In this document: positions 3,146-39,073 of the stretch, in pieces | Layout of the letters: every line of letters begins with the position of its first letter | How positions within the stretch are numbered: the stretch's first letter is position 1 | Assembly: GCF_019226825.1 (NCBI RefSeq) | Contig: NZ_CP076642.1 | Span: 930,001-994,000 of the forward strand | Source: Vibrio ostreae | Lineage (GTDB): Bacteria; Pseudomonadota; Gammaproteobacteria; Enterobacterales; Vibrionaceae | Direction of reading: 5' to 3' | DNA: 64,000 nucleotides | The notes under the pieces: generated by a model | Database searches by the model: none | The model's input: the letters and a program-made list of their open reading frames with translations, nothing else | What the model was told of the DNA's origin: nothing | Translations under genes and position numbers: made by a program

Positions 3146-3275
3146 ATTTTTCTTCAATAAAAACAAAACCTAAACGTCACAAAGCAGAAATCAAACCGTC
3201 ATTTAAAAATCCTACCTTACTCACATCCAAACGAAAGAGCACCGAAGCTCGTGAACTATGAATAAGGTAATAACA

Positions 3276-4265
3276 ATGAAACAAGCAGCAGTGGCAATCG
3301 CCGTTTTCGCAGCCCTGGCATCAGGCTCAGCAATGGCAGCAACCGTTTACAAAGCCGATGGTACCGAACTGAAAGTTGGCGGTCGTATGGAGTTCCGTGG
3401 TGACTTCAACGGCACCACCAAAGGCGAAGAAATCGAAGGCACAATGAAAAACAAAAGCCGTATGCGTCTGAACGTGAAAGGCGAAACGGAACTGGCTAAC
3501 GAGATGAAAGGCTTTGCAGTTTGGGAAGCAGAGCAAGGTGTTAACTCATCTGCTGATAACGACGAAGAATCTGATTTTGACCAACGTTATATGTACGTGG
3601 GTCTGAAAGGCCACTTCGGCGCAGTCTCATTCGGCCGTCAGGACAGTGCTGGCGTGCAAATCTCTAACATGTCAGATATTGCTACCTTTACTGGCGACCA
3701 AAAGGCATTCATCAACTCAGGTAACGAGCAAATCAACAACACGATTGCTTATGGCTACGAGTTCGACGCTGTCAGCCTGAAAGCAAGCTACATTGCCGGC
3801 GAAGAAAAAGATACTGATGGTTTTGGTATCTCTGCAATCTACAACACCCCATTTGGTCTGGATATCGGTCTGGGCTACTCATTCAATGACAATGGTGAAG
3901 GTAACGGTTCTGCTGACCAAGTTATCGCGGGCCTGGGCTACACCATTGATCAACTGTACCTGGCAGCAACCTACACCACAGGTGACCTGGACGACGATGC
4001 GAACCAGGAGTTTGATGGTGTGGAACTGGTTGCTCAGTACAAACTGACCAAAGAATTCCGCATGATTGCGGCGTACCAGAAACAAACTGAAGAGACCAAC
4101 GGTGTTGATGAAGACACAGCTGACTTTTTCGAACTGACTGGTCGCTACGACTTCAATAAAAACTTCCGTGGTTACCTGTCTTACATGCTAAACAACCTGG
4201 ATGAAGAAGACACTGGTTACGATGTAAACGACACCGTTCGCCTGGGTCTGCGCTACGACTTCTGA
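3276..4265 (+). CDS. Outer-membrane general porin (OmpU/OmpC-like)
   Basis: The 329-residue precursor has a signal peptide ending SAMA-ATV and an Asp/Glu-rich trimeric-porin beta-barrel. It ends in the outer-membrane signature GLRYDF with a terminal Phe. The start at 3276 is preferred over 3258 because AAGG sits eight bases before it. The N-terminal KADGTELKVGGR resembles Vibrio OmpU-type porins. It should let small hydrophilic solutes cross the outer membrane. It has its own terminator and lies upstream of the tandem small RNAs. Confidence 0.88.
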   Translation: MKQAAVAIAVFAALASGSAMAATVYKADGTELKVGGRMEFRGDFNGTTKGEEIEGTMKNKSRMRLNVKGETELANEMKGFAVWEAEQGVNSSADNDEESDFDQRYMYVGLKGHFGAVSFGRQDSAGVQISNMSDIATFTGDQKAFINSGNEQINNTIAYGYEFDAVSLKASYIAGEEKDTDGFGISAIYNTPFGLDIGLGYSFNDNGEGNGSADQVIAGLGYTIDQLYLAATYTTGDLDDDANQEFDGVELVAQYKLTKEFRMIAAYQKQTEETNGVDEDTADFFELTGRYDFNKNFRGYLSYMLNNLDEEDTGYDVNDTVRLGLRYDF

Positions 4266-4298
4266 TCCCTCCCTTAATCTTGTGGGATACTGTCCATT

Positions 4299-4322
4299 GG
4301 CCAAGCTTCGCTTGGCCTTTTT
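4299..4322 (+). terminator. Terminator after the porin gene
   Basis: Perfect GGCCAAGC / GCTTGGCC hairpin with a TTC-type loop followed by six T. Confidence 0.85.
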
Positions 4323-4338
4323 GCACTTCGTGAGTGCA
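4322..4338. promoter_or_regulatory. Dyad resembling an NtrC-type enhancer
   Basis: TGCACT-N5-AGTGCA is a perfect six-base dyad with a five-base spacer, the same architecture as the enterobacterial NtrC site (TGCACC-N5-GGTGCA). It lies about 120 bases upstream of the predicted start of the first small RNA, a normal distance for a sigma54 enhancer. It abuts the porin terminator, so it could be only local hairpin sequence. The activator is inferred. Confidence 0.35.
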
Positions 4339-4432
4339 GTATGAGCCGAAACAGTGCTGAGAAAATGCTCAGCCGCTGAATCAAGATTCACCACACAGGT
4401 TAATCAACGGATATTATTGGCTTTTCAAAGTT

Positions 4433-4446
4433 GGCATGAGGAATGC
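4433..4446 (+). promoter_or_regulatory. Sigma54 promoter of small RNA copy 1
   Basis: TTGGCATGAGGAATGC has GG at 4433-4434 and GC at 4445-4446 with exactly ten bases between, the obligatory sigma54 -24/-12 spacing. The predicted start is near 4458. The same arrangement recurs in front of copy 2. Confidence 0.75.
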
Positions 4447-4457
4447 TTAGTAGTTAG

Positions 4458-4555
4458 TACAAATGCAGGCAGCGTTTGTGCTTCTTTTCAGTGGTAAGGC
4501 AGAAATCACTGATCACTTCATGTTCTTTGACCTCCCTCTGGGAGGTCTTTTTTTT
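4458..4555 (+). ncRNA. Tandem sigma54-dependent small RNA, copy 1
   Basis: Predicted RNA of about 98 nt from TACAAATGCAGGCAGCG to a strong terminator (GACCTCC / GGGAGGTC plus eight T). A central stem pairs CAGTGGT with ATCACTG through one G-U wobble. Copy 2, 223 bases downstream, is almost identical along its length. I do not recognise the family: it is not Qrr, Spot 42, RyhB or a CsrB type. The U-rich end suits Hfq binding. The short open frame inside lacks a ribosome site. Confidence 0.7.
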
Positions 4556-4655
4556 GCACCAAGTTTACTCTCATGCCCTAAAACCAAGCAGCAAAATTGG
4601 TTCTACCTCAGCGATAAAAACCTCAATCATCTGATTTTATTGGCTTTATAAAATT

Positions 4656-4669
4656 GGCATAGAGAATGC
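4656..4669 (+). promoter_or_regulatory. Sigma54 promoter of small RNA copy 2
   Basis: ATTGGCATAGAGAATGC has GG at 4656-4657 and GC at 4668-4669 with ten bases between. The upstream ATTGGCTTT element is also shared with copy 1. The predicted start near 4681 falls at the same TAC as in copy 1. Confidence 0.75.
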
Positions 4670-4680
4670 ATTGCTATAAT

Positions 4681-4776
4681 TACAAATGCAGGCAGCGTTT
4701 GTGCTTCTTTTCAGTGATATGGCAGAAATCACTGATCACTTCATGTTCTTTACCTCCCTCTGGGAGGTTTTTTTTT
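4681..4776 (+). ncRNA. Tandem sigma54-dependent small RNA, copy 2
   Basis: Predicted RNA of about 96 nt, nearly identical to copy 1. The differences keep structure. The central stem becomes a fully Watson-Crick CAGTGAT / ATCACTG. The terminator loses one G and its pairing C together (ACCTCC / GGGAGGT). This covariation supports a structured RNA rather than a coding repeat. The duplicated unit includes the promoter, so each copy is probably transcribed separately. Confidence 0.7.
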
Positions 4777-5128
4777 GCGTGTCATGTATCTGACACCGAA
4801 AGGATACTAGTCGCTTTAGCTTGCTCGTTATTTGAGCGGCATCAATATTATCAAAATCTACGCCTCCTGAAACACAAATGGCATCGACAAATGTGGCGCA
4901 GATCAGACCAATACAAAACCAATTGCATAATATAAATCCCGTTTAGCACCGATAGCGAGCTGTGTTTGCGGCAACCTGTCTCTGTCAACCAATCCTGCGT
5001 TAAAAATAAACTGAAAGAAAAACACCAGAATCTCTGTCTTAACCTTTAACTCACCCGATTGCACAGCTGACAGCGAATGCTTATGCTGATGATTAATCGG
5101 GCTCAAATCAAGATTCAGAGGAATGAGG
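4777..5128. other. Gene-free stretch between small RNA copy 2 and the glutaredoxin-like gene
   Basis: About 350 bases of AT-rich sequence. I see no supported coding frame, repeat or strong hairpin here. It presumably holds the promoter of the downstream gene. Confidence 0.5.
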
Positions 5129-5740
5129 ATGACCAAGCCAATTAAAGTGACACTTTATCGGTGGGCTGGGCAGTTTGGCCCGTTTAAAGTCAAAATACCA
5201 TGCGGTGAATGCACATTAAGCAAAGATATCCTGGAAGATAGTTTACGCAATGAACTACTGGATGTACCGGTCGATCTGGAAATCAAAGACTGGCTCAGCA
5301 ACTGGTGGCAGCCACTGCGCTTCGGCGCATGGCACGCACCTATTGTGACGGTGGAAAATCGGGTCGTCAGCCAGGGAGAAGCCCTCAACCGGGGAGCGTT
5401 TATTCAGGCTGTGATCAGCGAATGGGTCAAACGCGACAGATTACAGGGCAATATTGTCTTTGGTAAATACAACTGCCCATATTGTCAAAAAGCCAAGAAG
5501 CTGCTCGATACCGCTGGTATTCGCTATCAGTATCATGATGTTGTGAAAGAGAGTGCCGCCCTGTATCGTATGATCCCGGAAGTCAAAGCGCATATCGGTG
5601 GTAAAACTCCGGTCACCGTACCGCAGATCTGGCTTAACGGTGACTACATTGGCGGTTGTGATGCGCTTGAAGATTGGCTCAAAAGCCATATGGACAGCAA
5701 CAATGTTATCCACTTCTCAAGCACGGTCAGTGGTGAATAG
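5129..5740 (+). CDS. Protein with two thioredoxin-like domains, glutaredoxin at the C-terminus
   Basis: The start at 5129 is chosen because AGAGGA lies six bases before it; an ATG at 5123 is too close. The 203-residue protein has a C-terminal glutaredoxin domain (about 105-195) with CPYC at 116-119, cis-Pro TVPQIW and GGCDAL. The first 100 residues look like a second thioredoxin-type fold with CGEC at 25-28 and a possible cis-Pro at HAPIV. It probably acts as a cytoplasmic thiol-disulfide oxidoreductase. The N-terminal domain is less certain, and no partner gene is adjacent. Confidence 0.8.
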   Translation: MTKPIKVTLYRWAGQFGPFKVKIPCGECTLSKDILEDSLRNELLDVPVDLEIKDWLSNWWQPLRFGAWHAPIVTVENRVVSQGEALNRGAFIQAVISEWVKRDRLQGNIVFGKYNCPYCQKAKKLLDTAGIRYQYHDVVKESAALYRMIPEVKAHIGGKTPVTVPQIWLNGDYIGGCDALEDWLKSHMDSNNVIHFSSTVSGE

Positions 5741-13428: not shown

Positions 13429-15105
13429 ATGTTTGCCATCTATGAGTCCTATCAGGCCGGCTTACTTAAATCCGGCCACTGGACACGTAATCTCGTTGCC
13501 GGTCTGATCGTCGGTGTCGTGGCGCTGCCACTGGCCATGGCATTTGCGATTGCGTCCGGAGTCAAACCCGAGCAAGGCATTTATACTGCCATTTTTGCCG
13601 GTATCATAGTGTCGTTATGCGGTGGATCCCGGGTTCAGATAGCAGGCCCCACCGGCGCATTTATTGTCATTCTGGCGGGAATAGTCTCTGAACACGGCAT
13701 CGTGGGGCTACAAATCGCCACCATGATGGCCGGAGCCATTTTACTGCTGCTCGGCATCAGTAAGCTCGGCAGTATCATCCGTTTCATTCCCGATCCGGTT
13801 ATCGTCGGATTTACCAGCGGGATCGGTGTCATCATCTGGGTTGGTCAGTGGCGCGAATTTTTTGGTCTGCCCGCAATTCACGCCGAACATTTTCATCAGA
13901 AACTGCTGGCTCTGCTGCAAGCGTTGCCGCATCTGGATCTCACCACTACGCTGCTGGCGCTGTTATCTCTGGCCTTGGTGCTGCTCACGCCTAAAATTCC
14001 GCGCTTGAATAGAATTCCCGGCCCTTTAGTCGCTGTGGTTGTGGTCACCGTGCTGCAATATTGCCTCCAGTTCGAGGGGGTTCGAACCATAGGTTCTGCA
14101 TTTGGCGGTATTCCCCAGGGCCTGCCCGATTTGTCCGTCCCCGATGTCAGCCTGGCGCAAGTTCTCAGTCTGATTGGACCGGCCTTTGCCATCGCCATGT
14201 TGGGTGCGATTGAATCTTTGCTGTCTGCGGTCGTCGCTGATGGCATGGCGGGCACCAAACACAACTCCAATCAGGAACTGGTTGGCCAAGGCATCGCGAA
14301 TATGATTACGCCCCTGTTTGGCGGCATCGCCGCGACCGGAGCAATCGCACGCACTGCAACCAATATCCGTAATGGGGGCAACAGCCCGATTGCCGGCGTG
14401 GTGCATGCCCTGACTCTGGTGGTGATTATTCTGGCCCTGGCACCGCTGGCCGTTAACATCCCGCTTGCTACACTGAGCGCGATATTGTTTGTGGTGGCGT
14501 GGAATATGAGTGAGGCAGGCCACTTCGTGAAACTTGTCCGCCGGGCGCCACGCGCCGATGTGGTGATCCTGCTGATAACTTTCTTGTTGACCGTGTTTGC
14601 CGATCTGGTCGTCGCCGTCAATATCGGGGTTATTCTTGCTATTCTGCATTTTGTCAAACGCATGGCAGCCAGTGTTGAGGTCACCGCCAATACCAGTCAG
14701 GATCTCAGCCAGGAACTTCGCGAGTACAACCTGACCGTATTACCTCGCGACATCGCGGTCTACGCTCTGGACGGCCCCTTCTTTTTTGCCGCCGCAGAGA
14801 GCTTTGAGCGAGTCATGACCAGTATCGCCCAGCCGCCCCGTATTTTGATCATTCGTCTGAAGTGGGTGCCTTTTATGGATATTACCGGCTTGCAGACACT
14901 GGAAGAGATGGTGAGCCGCTTCCAACACCAGCAGGTTAATGTCTTGCTCTCCGGTGCCAATCCCAGAGTGGCACACAAGCTGCGTCGGGCAGGAATTGTC
15001 GCCTTGCTGGGTGAGCAGAATATCCAGCCGGATTTTCATCATGCCCTGGGCGCTGCGCTGGCCATGAAAGAAGCGGCCACAGACAAGAATCCATCCTTCA
15101 ACTGA
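13429..15105 (+). CDS. SulP-family anion transporter with STAS domain
   Basis: The 558-residue protein has the SulP membrane core (about 20-410). It begins NLVAGLIVGVVALPLAMAFA and contains the ARTATNIRNGG segment. A C-terminal cytoplasmic STAS domain (about 435-545) contains MDITGLQTLEEM. SulP proteins move sulfate, bicarbonate or dicarboxylates, often with Na+ or H+. The substrate is not decided here. It corresponds to V. cholerae VCA0077 by position. No carbonic anhydrase or cys gene is adjacent. Confidence 0.9.
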   Translation: MFAIYESYQAGLLKSGHWTRNLVAGLIVGVVALPLAMAFAIASGVKPEQGIYTAIFAGIIVSLCGGSRVQIAGPTGAFIVILAGIVSEHGIVGLQIATMMAGAILLLLGISKLGSIIRFIPDPVIVGFTSGIGVIIWVGQWREFFGLPAIHAEHFHQKLLALLQALPHLDLTTTLLALLSLALVLLTPKIPRLNRIPGPLVAVVVVTVLQYCLQFEGVRTIGSAFGGIPQGLPDLSVPDVSLAQVLSLIGPAFAIAMLGAIESLLSAVVADGMAGTKHNSNQELVGQGIANMITPLFGGIAATGAIARTATNIRNGGNSPIAGVVHALTLVVIILALAPLAVNIPLATLSAILFVVAWNMSEAGHFVKLVRRAPRADVVILLITFLLTVFADLVVAVNIGVILAILHFVKRMAASVEVTANTSQDLSQELREYNLTVLPRDIAVYALDGPFFFAAAESFERVMTSIAQPPRILIIRLKWVPFMDITGLQTLEEMVSRFQHQQVNVLLSGANPRVAHKLRRAGIVALLGEQNIQPDFHHALGAALAMKEAATDKNPSFN

Positions 15106-38812: not shown

Positions 38813-38864
38813 AGACTAGCCCCAAACGACTTGGAGTTGCAGGCAGGATTGACCAACGACAGAT

Positions 38865-38974
38865 AAAAAAGAGCCAACCGCAAATGGTGCGATTGGCTTA
38901 TATATGATGTGAACAAATATCGATTCACTAACAACGTCAGTTGGCTAGGTGACCCTCGGCTTAATAAGGGTCGA
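38865..38974 (-). ncRNA. qrr: Qrr quorum-regulatory small RNA
   Basis: On the minus strand a 110-nt RNA starts at CGACCCTTATTAAGCCGAGG and contains the conserved Qrr core GCCAACTGACGTTGTTAG. It ends with the Qrr terminator GCCAATCGCA / TTGCGGTTGGC plus T-run. The 5' hairpin GACCC / GGGTC is intact. Qrr RNAs use Hfq to control luxR/hapR and aphA-type mRNAs. Which Qrr number it corresponds to cannot be decided here. Confidence 0.93.
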
Positions 38975-38984
38975 TACATATTAT

Positions 38985-38998
38985 GCATTAAGCGTGCC
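38985..38998 (-). promoter_or_regulatory. Sigma54 promoter of qrr
   Basis: Minus-strand TTGGCACGCTTAATGC has GG at 38998-38997 and GC at 38986-38985 with ten bases between. The RNA start follows about 12 bases later. LuxO-P and sigma54 are the known Qrr activators. Confidence 0.9.
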
Positions 38999-39073
38999 AA
39001 CTTGAAAAGCGCTTTTTCGGCCTGTTCTGCGCACATTCACCTCAATCTTCAGCATGTTTTTGCATTTTAAAAA

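Follow-up and report, generated by a model that had tools for sequence, protein, structure and literature searches.

Tandem Vibrio small RNA genes with predicted sigma54 promoters and NtrC-type enhancer sites

Between an outer-membrane porin gene (3258..4265, + strand; Pfam Porin_4/Porin_1, with NCBIfam OmpF/OmpC/PhoE below cut-off) and a gene with a glutaredoxin domain match (5123..5740, + strand), the window, by which we mean the whole 64,000-nucleotide stretch of DNA analysed here, holds a direct repeat: 4402-4553 recurs at 4625-4776 with 80% identity over 152 nt and a spacing of 223. What do the two copies encode, what would switch them on, and would they act on their neighbours or elsewhere?

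Two tandem units and their promoters

By prediction, each unit has a sigma54 promoter and encodes about 97 nt that form two hairpins and end in a U-tailed terminator, and inside the RNA part the aligned copies differ at only about four positions. The small RNA of unit 1 would occupy 4458..4555 (+ strand), from a predicted start at T4458, and that of unit 2 4681..4776 (+ strand), from T4681; their fold energies are -32.1 and -29.1 kcal/mol, respectively (z -3.5 and -2.8 against shuffles). In unit 1, fold and alignment give hairpin 1, near-invariant across the family and with the loop AGGCA, at 4458..4480, and a conserved, unpaired linker, GCUUCUU, which may serve as a seed, at 4481..4487. Hairpin 2 follows at 4488..4512, carrying GGCAGAA in its loop on a stem that varies on both sides in relatives, and then comes an intrinsic terminator stem-loop at 4529..4547 with a U-run after it. 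The corresponding elements of unit 2 are hairpin 1 at 4681..4703 and hairpin 2 at 4711..4735, both from the fold, and the intrinsic terminator stem-loop at 4752..4768; all lie, like those of unit 1, on the + strand. A sequence-only reading of the locus had described two near-identical structured units whose few differences preserve structure, and the repeat, the hairpins and the U-tailed terminators bear this out: in hairpin 2 a G-U pair becomes A-U, and one terminator pair is gone on both sides.

The putative -24/-12 promoters of unit 1 (TGGCATGAGGAATGC, 4432..4446, + strand) and unit 2 (TGGCATAGAGAATGC, 4655..4669, + strand) match the pattern TGGCAY-N6-TGC (GG-N10-GC), and in both 11 nt separate the -12 C from T4458 or T4681, as the start sites of the earlier reading need. 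The pattern is matched four times in the window, against a mean of 2.4 in shuffles, the four being unit 1, unit 2, the promoter of a Qrr gene and a site within a coding gene at 14969. This last is a perfect match (14969-14983) within what looks by eye like a gene for a SulP-type transporter, and it is probably there by chance. No sigma70-like promoter was predicted in 4266-5122, and since the porin gene ends in its own terminator (4299..4317, + strand, between the porin gene and unit 1), the units probably depend on their own promoters.

The promoter pattern is also kept in relatives. Every one of the 54 units in the two main classes described below has it, ending 11-13 nt before the RNA; these units had been picked by RNA models or by the RNA core, independently of the promoter, and two of them (L028 and L111) probably represent one species. 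A smaller, earlier set had given the same result (43/43). The third class, C, has the pattern in 4/4 units, yet the acceptance of those four rested partly on the promoter. The sequence-only reading, which gave each unit its own sigma54 promoter, had named promoter loss in relatives that keep the repeat as the observation that would speak against it, and such loss was found only in one decayed remnant (G282). This remnant of an RNA gene (L240, G282:C141:900-1600) lies between porin and ribN; its 3' half stays, and promoter and hairpin 1 are gone. That the units are small RNA genes with predicted sigma54 promoters of their own is, we believe, strongly supported by these comparisons.

Distribution, classes and neighbours

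With BLAST, matches were obtained in 22 of 197 Vibrionaceae genomes. RNA models were built for class A from 19 sequences and for class B from 14, including V. harveyi, and at a cut-off of E 0.01 the class A model matched 48 of 329 Vibrionaceae genomes and the second model 55 of 329. Of the eight genomes matched by the second model alone, four (G144, G243, G245 and G326) carry class C and one is the G282 remnant; the weak model matches in the remaining three (G131, G325 and G114), in which neither promoter nor hairpin 1 was seen, look spurious and were dismissed. Intact copies are present in 52 of the 329 genomes, all within one genus (Vibrio; 227 genomes), a figure that is possibly low, as the strictly filtered searches may miss weak relatives. 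A pattern scan of a second collection named 19 loci, among them V. harveyi, V. anguillarum, V. ordalii, V. furnissii, V. ruber, V. aestuarianus, V. diabolicus and V. owensii, and the plasmid and phage collections gave no match to the RNA. Because the models leave most Vibrio genomes without a match, the role of the RNA is not a core one in the genus.

Tandem copies are confined to the lineage of the window. Apart from the window itself, more than one copy is found only in the nearest genome, G001, which has three, and the other model-matched genomes have one each. The sequence-only reading had likened the units to paired sigma54 RNAs (GlmY/GlmZ, CrcZ/CrcY); a likeness to obligatory pairs of that kind is not supported, as nearly all relatives are single-copy. 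Window copy 2 is closest to G001 copy 3 (RNA 98%, upstream 83%, downstream 92%). Upstream, window copy 1 is closest to G001 copy 1 (67.5%); its RNA is closest to copy 2 (99%, vs 97% for copy 1), and so is its downstream sequence (77%). The simplest reading of this pattern is that the window's lineage lost a middle unit when two of the RNA repeats recombined.

Hairpin 1 and the bases next to it (CAAATGCA..GCGTTTGTGCTTCT) are almost invariant in the 33 class A and B sequences. Hairpin 2 of class A has the loop GGCAGA in nearly all members on a stem altered on both sides (L082, L089, L090, L094 and L095), and class B has at this place a different hairpin, with two-sided changes of its own, and has lost the second GGCAGA motif. 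In class C, GCATTTG replaces the class A/B bases of hairpin 1, so that a U-G pair becomes U-A, CACTT stands where classes A and B have their GCTTCT stretch, and the body is a long, branched and very stable helix within an RNA of 154-161 nt (L237, L238, L239 and L241). Throughout the three classes GGCA is kept in the hairpin 1 loop, with one class A exception (L012), and in classes A and C GGCAGA recurs further on amid changing stems. From this pattern of conservation, selection appears to keep the promoter, hairpin 1, its GGCA loop and termination, and to allow different bodies.

The neighbours recur as well. Counting one locus per genome, 39 of 48 loci have a porin gene upstream of the RNA on the same strand, 34 a glutaredoxin gene within 1.5 kb, and 29 a ribN-like EamA gene in the downstream 1.5 kb that was examined, including one on a cut contig (L091, V. 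ordalii); the name ribN rests on gene position, by comparison with the V. cholerae locus. There, the porin gene VCA1008, ribN and the glutaredoxin gene VCA1011 are reported as an operon (PMC5312566), and VCA1008 is described as a phosphate-limitation porin (PMC13157583). The other 19 of the 48 loci have no ribN in the downstream 1.5 kb. In the window itself, the roughly 320 bp from 4800 to 5122 show no clear gene and no ribN-like frame, and the same holds for G001. In three of the four class C genomes ribN lies about 2.8 kb from the RNA with other genes between; by eye, these are transporter-like and deacylase-like frames. In a genome that is probably V. cholerae the porin gene adjoins ribN and the RNA is absent. 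At eleven further ribN loci that the models did not match, about 1.7 kb of upstream sequence contained neither TGGCAY-N6-TGC nor the core of hairpin 1, and in four of these the porin gene adjoins ribN.

A putative NtrC-type enhancer

What would activate these promoters? We scored 17-mers at 14 positions against the NtrC consensus TGCACYANNNTRGTGCA, which resembles the printed form, TGCACCAnnnTGGTGCA. The latter is the 17-bp consensus given in print (PMC8743547). Upstream of unit 1, the first NtrC-type site (TGCACTTCGTGAGTGCA, 4322..4338, + strand) agrees at 12 of 14 positions, and a second, 20 bp after it (4342..4358, + strand), at 9 of 14. Unit 2 has sites of 9/14 at 4555..4571, beginning where the T-run of terminator 1 ends, and at 4574..4590 (both + strand). 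The pair score is 21 for copy 1, reached by 1% of shuffles, and 18 for copy 2, a weak value reached by 8.5%. The TGCACT-N5-AGTGCA dyad of NtrC-like architecture to which the sequence-only reading had pointed is thus present as TGCACTTCGTGAGTGCA; it is not single, however, as it has a second site beside it and copy 2 has a weaker pair of its own. In G001, the middle and last of the three tandem units likewise have weaker NtrC-type sites, of 9/14 each (L001, 1552-2092).

Across the family, the best single site averages 11.0/14 in 43 sRNA promoters, vs 8.6 in dinucleotide shuffles, and a score of at least 10 is reached by 91% of these promoters and 13% of shuffles. All 37 promoters of the non-redundant set have their best pair at a spacing of 19-21 bp (shuffles 10%), and 35 of them a pair score of at least 19 (shuffles 3.8%), whereas just 0.6% of 511 window tiles combine that spacing with that score. 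Some pairs are weak: besides window copy 2, those of L116, L114 and L098 are reached by 14%, 5.5% and 5% of their own shuffles. Measured from the -24 GG, the first site lies at -99 to -104 in 27 of the 37, at -89 to -91 in six and at -110 to -113 in four, so that its positions step by about one helical turn; the class C pairs stand at -112, with a spacing of 19 and scores of 19-21. As a contrast, the best pair at the window's Qrr promoter scores 18 at a spacing of 27, reached by 20% of shuffles.

The glnA promoters of Vibrio provide a yardstick from the same genus. An NtrC-type site lies at -101/-102 from the -24 GG in 20/20 of them, and a site at -80/-81 is among the three best in 14/20. The sRNA pair is placed like this glnA pair (about -101/-80) in 27/37 promoters and about one helical turn off in the other 10. 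The best glnA site averages 12.7/14, above the 11.0 of the sRNA promoters, and the top-scoring glnA pair is another combination, spaced 29-44, in 14/20 and one spaced 21-22 in 6/20, the former because more than two sites are present in those promoters. Since site sequence, spacing and position match the glnA promoters, the sRNA promoters carry a predicted NtrC-type enhancer, and a link to nitrogen is supported. The sequence-only reading had offered a nitrogen- or carbon-linked regulator; its nitrogen half is favoured by these glnA-like sites, and for a carbon signal we found no evidence. It had also singled out a shared upstream element, ATTGGCTTT, which is indeed common to both window units but is not conserved even in the nearest relative. 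What is enriched there is an IHF-like stretch: between sites and promoter, the IHF consensus is matched at 9/9 positions in 20 of 54 promoters vs 0.9% in mononucleotide shuffles, with only 7/9 and 8/9 in the two window promoters.

Action, known relatives and significance

The best explanation, and one in which we have considerable confidence, is control by NtrC and sigma54, induction under nitrogen limitation and a trans-acting RNA of about 97 nt. We propose the following model. Each unit would be a gene in its own right, with a regulatory RNA that acts in trans as its product. Under nitrogen shortage, NtrC in its phosphorylated form would occupy the pair of 17-bp sites, which lie some two helical turns from each other and upstream of the -24/-12 element, and an IHF-type bend would help it to reach sigma54 RNA polymerase, upon which the promoter opens. 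Transcription would begin at the foot of hairpin 1 and end at the intrinsic terminator. The RNA would then act on other transcripts through its 5' hairpin with the GGCA loop and, in classes A and B, the GCUUCU stretch; in classes A and C the second GGCAGA would also take part. Hfq-aided pairing near ribosome-binding sites seems the most likely mode, and sequence traits of Hfq-type sRNAs, an intrinsic terminator with a U-tail and an unpaired pyrimidine stretch, are present. In the window's lineage, the tandem copies would presumably increase dosage.

Limited searches for targets of such pairing produced no convincing candidate. The 12-mer complementary to the core, AGAAGCACAAAC, has 65 matches in 18 genomes, of which 20 are the sRNA genes themselves; the remaining 45 compare with 11 for the reversed pattern, and all 45 were examined, without finding a conserved site just ahead of a start codon. 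Most fall within open frames, several of them in one frame of many genomes, so codon use is the likely cause of the excess. One frame of about 103 codons (an ArsR-type regulator by eye) has the match in seven genomes (L132, L147, L188, L190, L195, L203 and L204), which is probably protein conservation, the alternative being a target in the coding region. The pattern AAGAAGCAC-N2-8-ATG was sought in eight genomes; 28 of its 78 listed places were examined and were mostly intragenic, with one (L162, in a single genome) directly before a start codon. Duplex energies against the start regions of the porin (14), ribN (29) and glutaredoxin (34) genes gave mean z values of -0.7, 0.2 and -0.3, that is, no signal.

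Could the promoters be real and the activator another? An enhancer-binding protein with TGCA-type sites, for example one of the LuxO type, might answer a signal other than nitrogen; TGCA half sites are not exclusive to NtrC, LuxO sites contain TTGCA and TGCAA, and the sRNA promoter site scores below that of glnA. We nevertheless think this improbable, as the 17-bp length, the 19-21-bp pairing and the position all match glnA of the same genus, and the window's Qrr promoter is without an NtrC-type pair. Somewhat less improbable, though still unlikely, is a different use of the RNA that is compatible with NtrC control: as a nitrogen-controlled decoy, a counterpart of CrcZ-like RNAs, it would titrate a protein or another RNA through its repeated GGCAG. 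The GGCA(G) motifs, constant together with promoter and 5' hairpin, would then capture one specific partner (an RNA-binding protein or another RNA), and the rest, including the three unrelated-looking 3' bodies, would be scaffold. The constancy of the loop GGCA, the repetition of GGCAGA in A and C while stems vary, and the mRNA target searches, which gave none convincing, would fit. However, the motif is short, class B lacks the second copy, and we know of no protein with GGCAG-type specificity. The U-tailed terminator and pyrimidine linker, moreover, suit an Hfq pairing RNA, and we prefer pairing by way of hairpin 1 and GCUUCU, with the aid of Hfq, to the GGCAG decoy, which is the bolder reading.

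Two further readings would do without a trans-acting RNA. That the units belong to the porin mRNA as its 3' end, or form a leader or attenuator of a downstream ribN, is suggested by the reported co-transcription of V. cholerae ribN with the porin gene (PMC5312566) and by the place of the RNA between porin and ribN in many relatives, but it is very unlikely: every intact copy has its own promoter, terminators flank the window units on both sides, 19 of the 48 loci lack a nearby ribN and three class C genomes have it at a distance, the probable V. cholerae genome has porin and ribN without the RNA, and no pairing signal with ribN starts was seen. A short leaderless peptide, translated from a frame that begins with the AUG of hairpin 1 (by eye, MQAAFVLL... 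for class A), can scarcely be credited, since a one-base insertion in hairpin 1 shifts the frame between genomes, the core has almost no third-base variation, and the AUG lies within a stem with no ribosome-binding site ahead.

Among catalogued RNAs we found no counterpart, in line with the sequence-only reading, which had recognised no known Vibrio sigma54 RNA family and had set the units apart from Qrr. No Rfam 15 family reached its gathering score in the window units or in 11 homologous loci, and for class C, where two of the four loci were compared with Rfam, there was no match at E 0.1. RprA (RF00034) gave full-length but weak matches to both units; with 24.5 and 22.9 bits (E 2.8 and 5.7) they stay well below its gathering score, 70 bits, and are at chance level. 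The Qrr model (RF00378) recovers the Qrr gene of the window (38864-38973) but leaves the units unmatched. That gene (minus strand, 107 bits) spans 38864-38999 together with its -24/-12 promoter at 38985-38999. Like the units, Qrr RNAs belong to Vibrio, are close to 100 nt long, have sigma54 promoters and intrinsic terminators and come in several copies in some species, but the Qrr promoter of the window does not have the NtrC-type pair.

GlnZ, which we take to be the name of the sRNA from the glnA 3' UTR of enterobacteria, is a nitrogen-limitation sRNA, as the units are predicted to be, but is not an independent sigma54 gene. It is reported to be released from the 3' UTR of the glnA mRNA (PMC9731577). 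In Pseudomonas, NrsZ is described as an NtrBC/RpoN-dependent nitrogen sRNA with a functional, processed 5' part of 60 nt (PMC8395346). As predicted for the Vibrio units, it is an intergenic sRNA under NtrC and sigma54, but it differs in length and locus, being about 226 nt, processed and beside ntrC, whereas the units are about 97 nt and lie by porin/ribN. CrcZ, CrcY and CrcX of Pseudomonas are reported to be RpoN- and IHF-dependent, with extra homologous copies in some species (PMC8395346), and they share with the units a sigma54 and IHF-type promoter and additional copies in some species. CrcZ, however, is activated by CbrB, measures 407 nt in PAO1 and has A-rich Hfq-binding motifs, and no such repeats were seen in the units. 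In E. coli K-12, sgrST-setA is reported as an NtrC-dependent RpoN target (PMC8743547); SgrS is a sugar-stress sRNA, to which the units have no Rfam match.

In the literature searched, with supplements and subscription papers outside its scope and sources available in part, we found no description of a nitrogen-controlled Vibrio sRNA. The family appears to be new and is uncatalogued in Rfam 15, and it is possible that it has been recorded as an uncharacterised transcript under a local name. Its kind is already known, since independent NtrC/RpoN sRNAs exist elsewhere (NrsZ, PMC8395346). The RNA may have escaped notice because the best studied species, to judge from the probable V. cholerae genome, seems to be without it. 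With three forms of body on one fixed 5' hairpin, the functional part should be easy to test. If our proposal is true, V. harveyi, V. anguillarum, V. furnissii, V. diabolicus and other Vibrio would gain a post-transcriptional arm of the nitrogen response.
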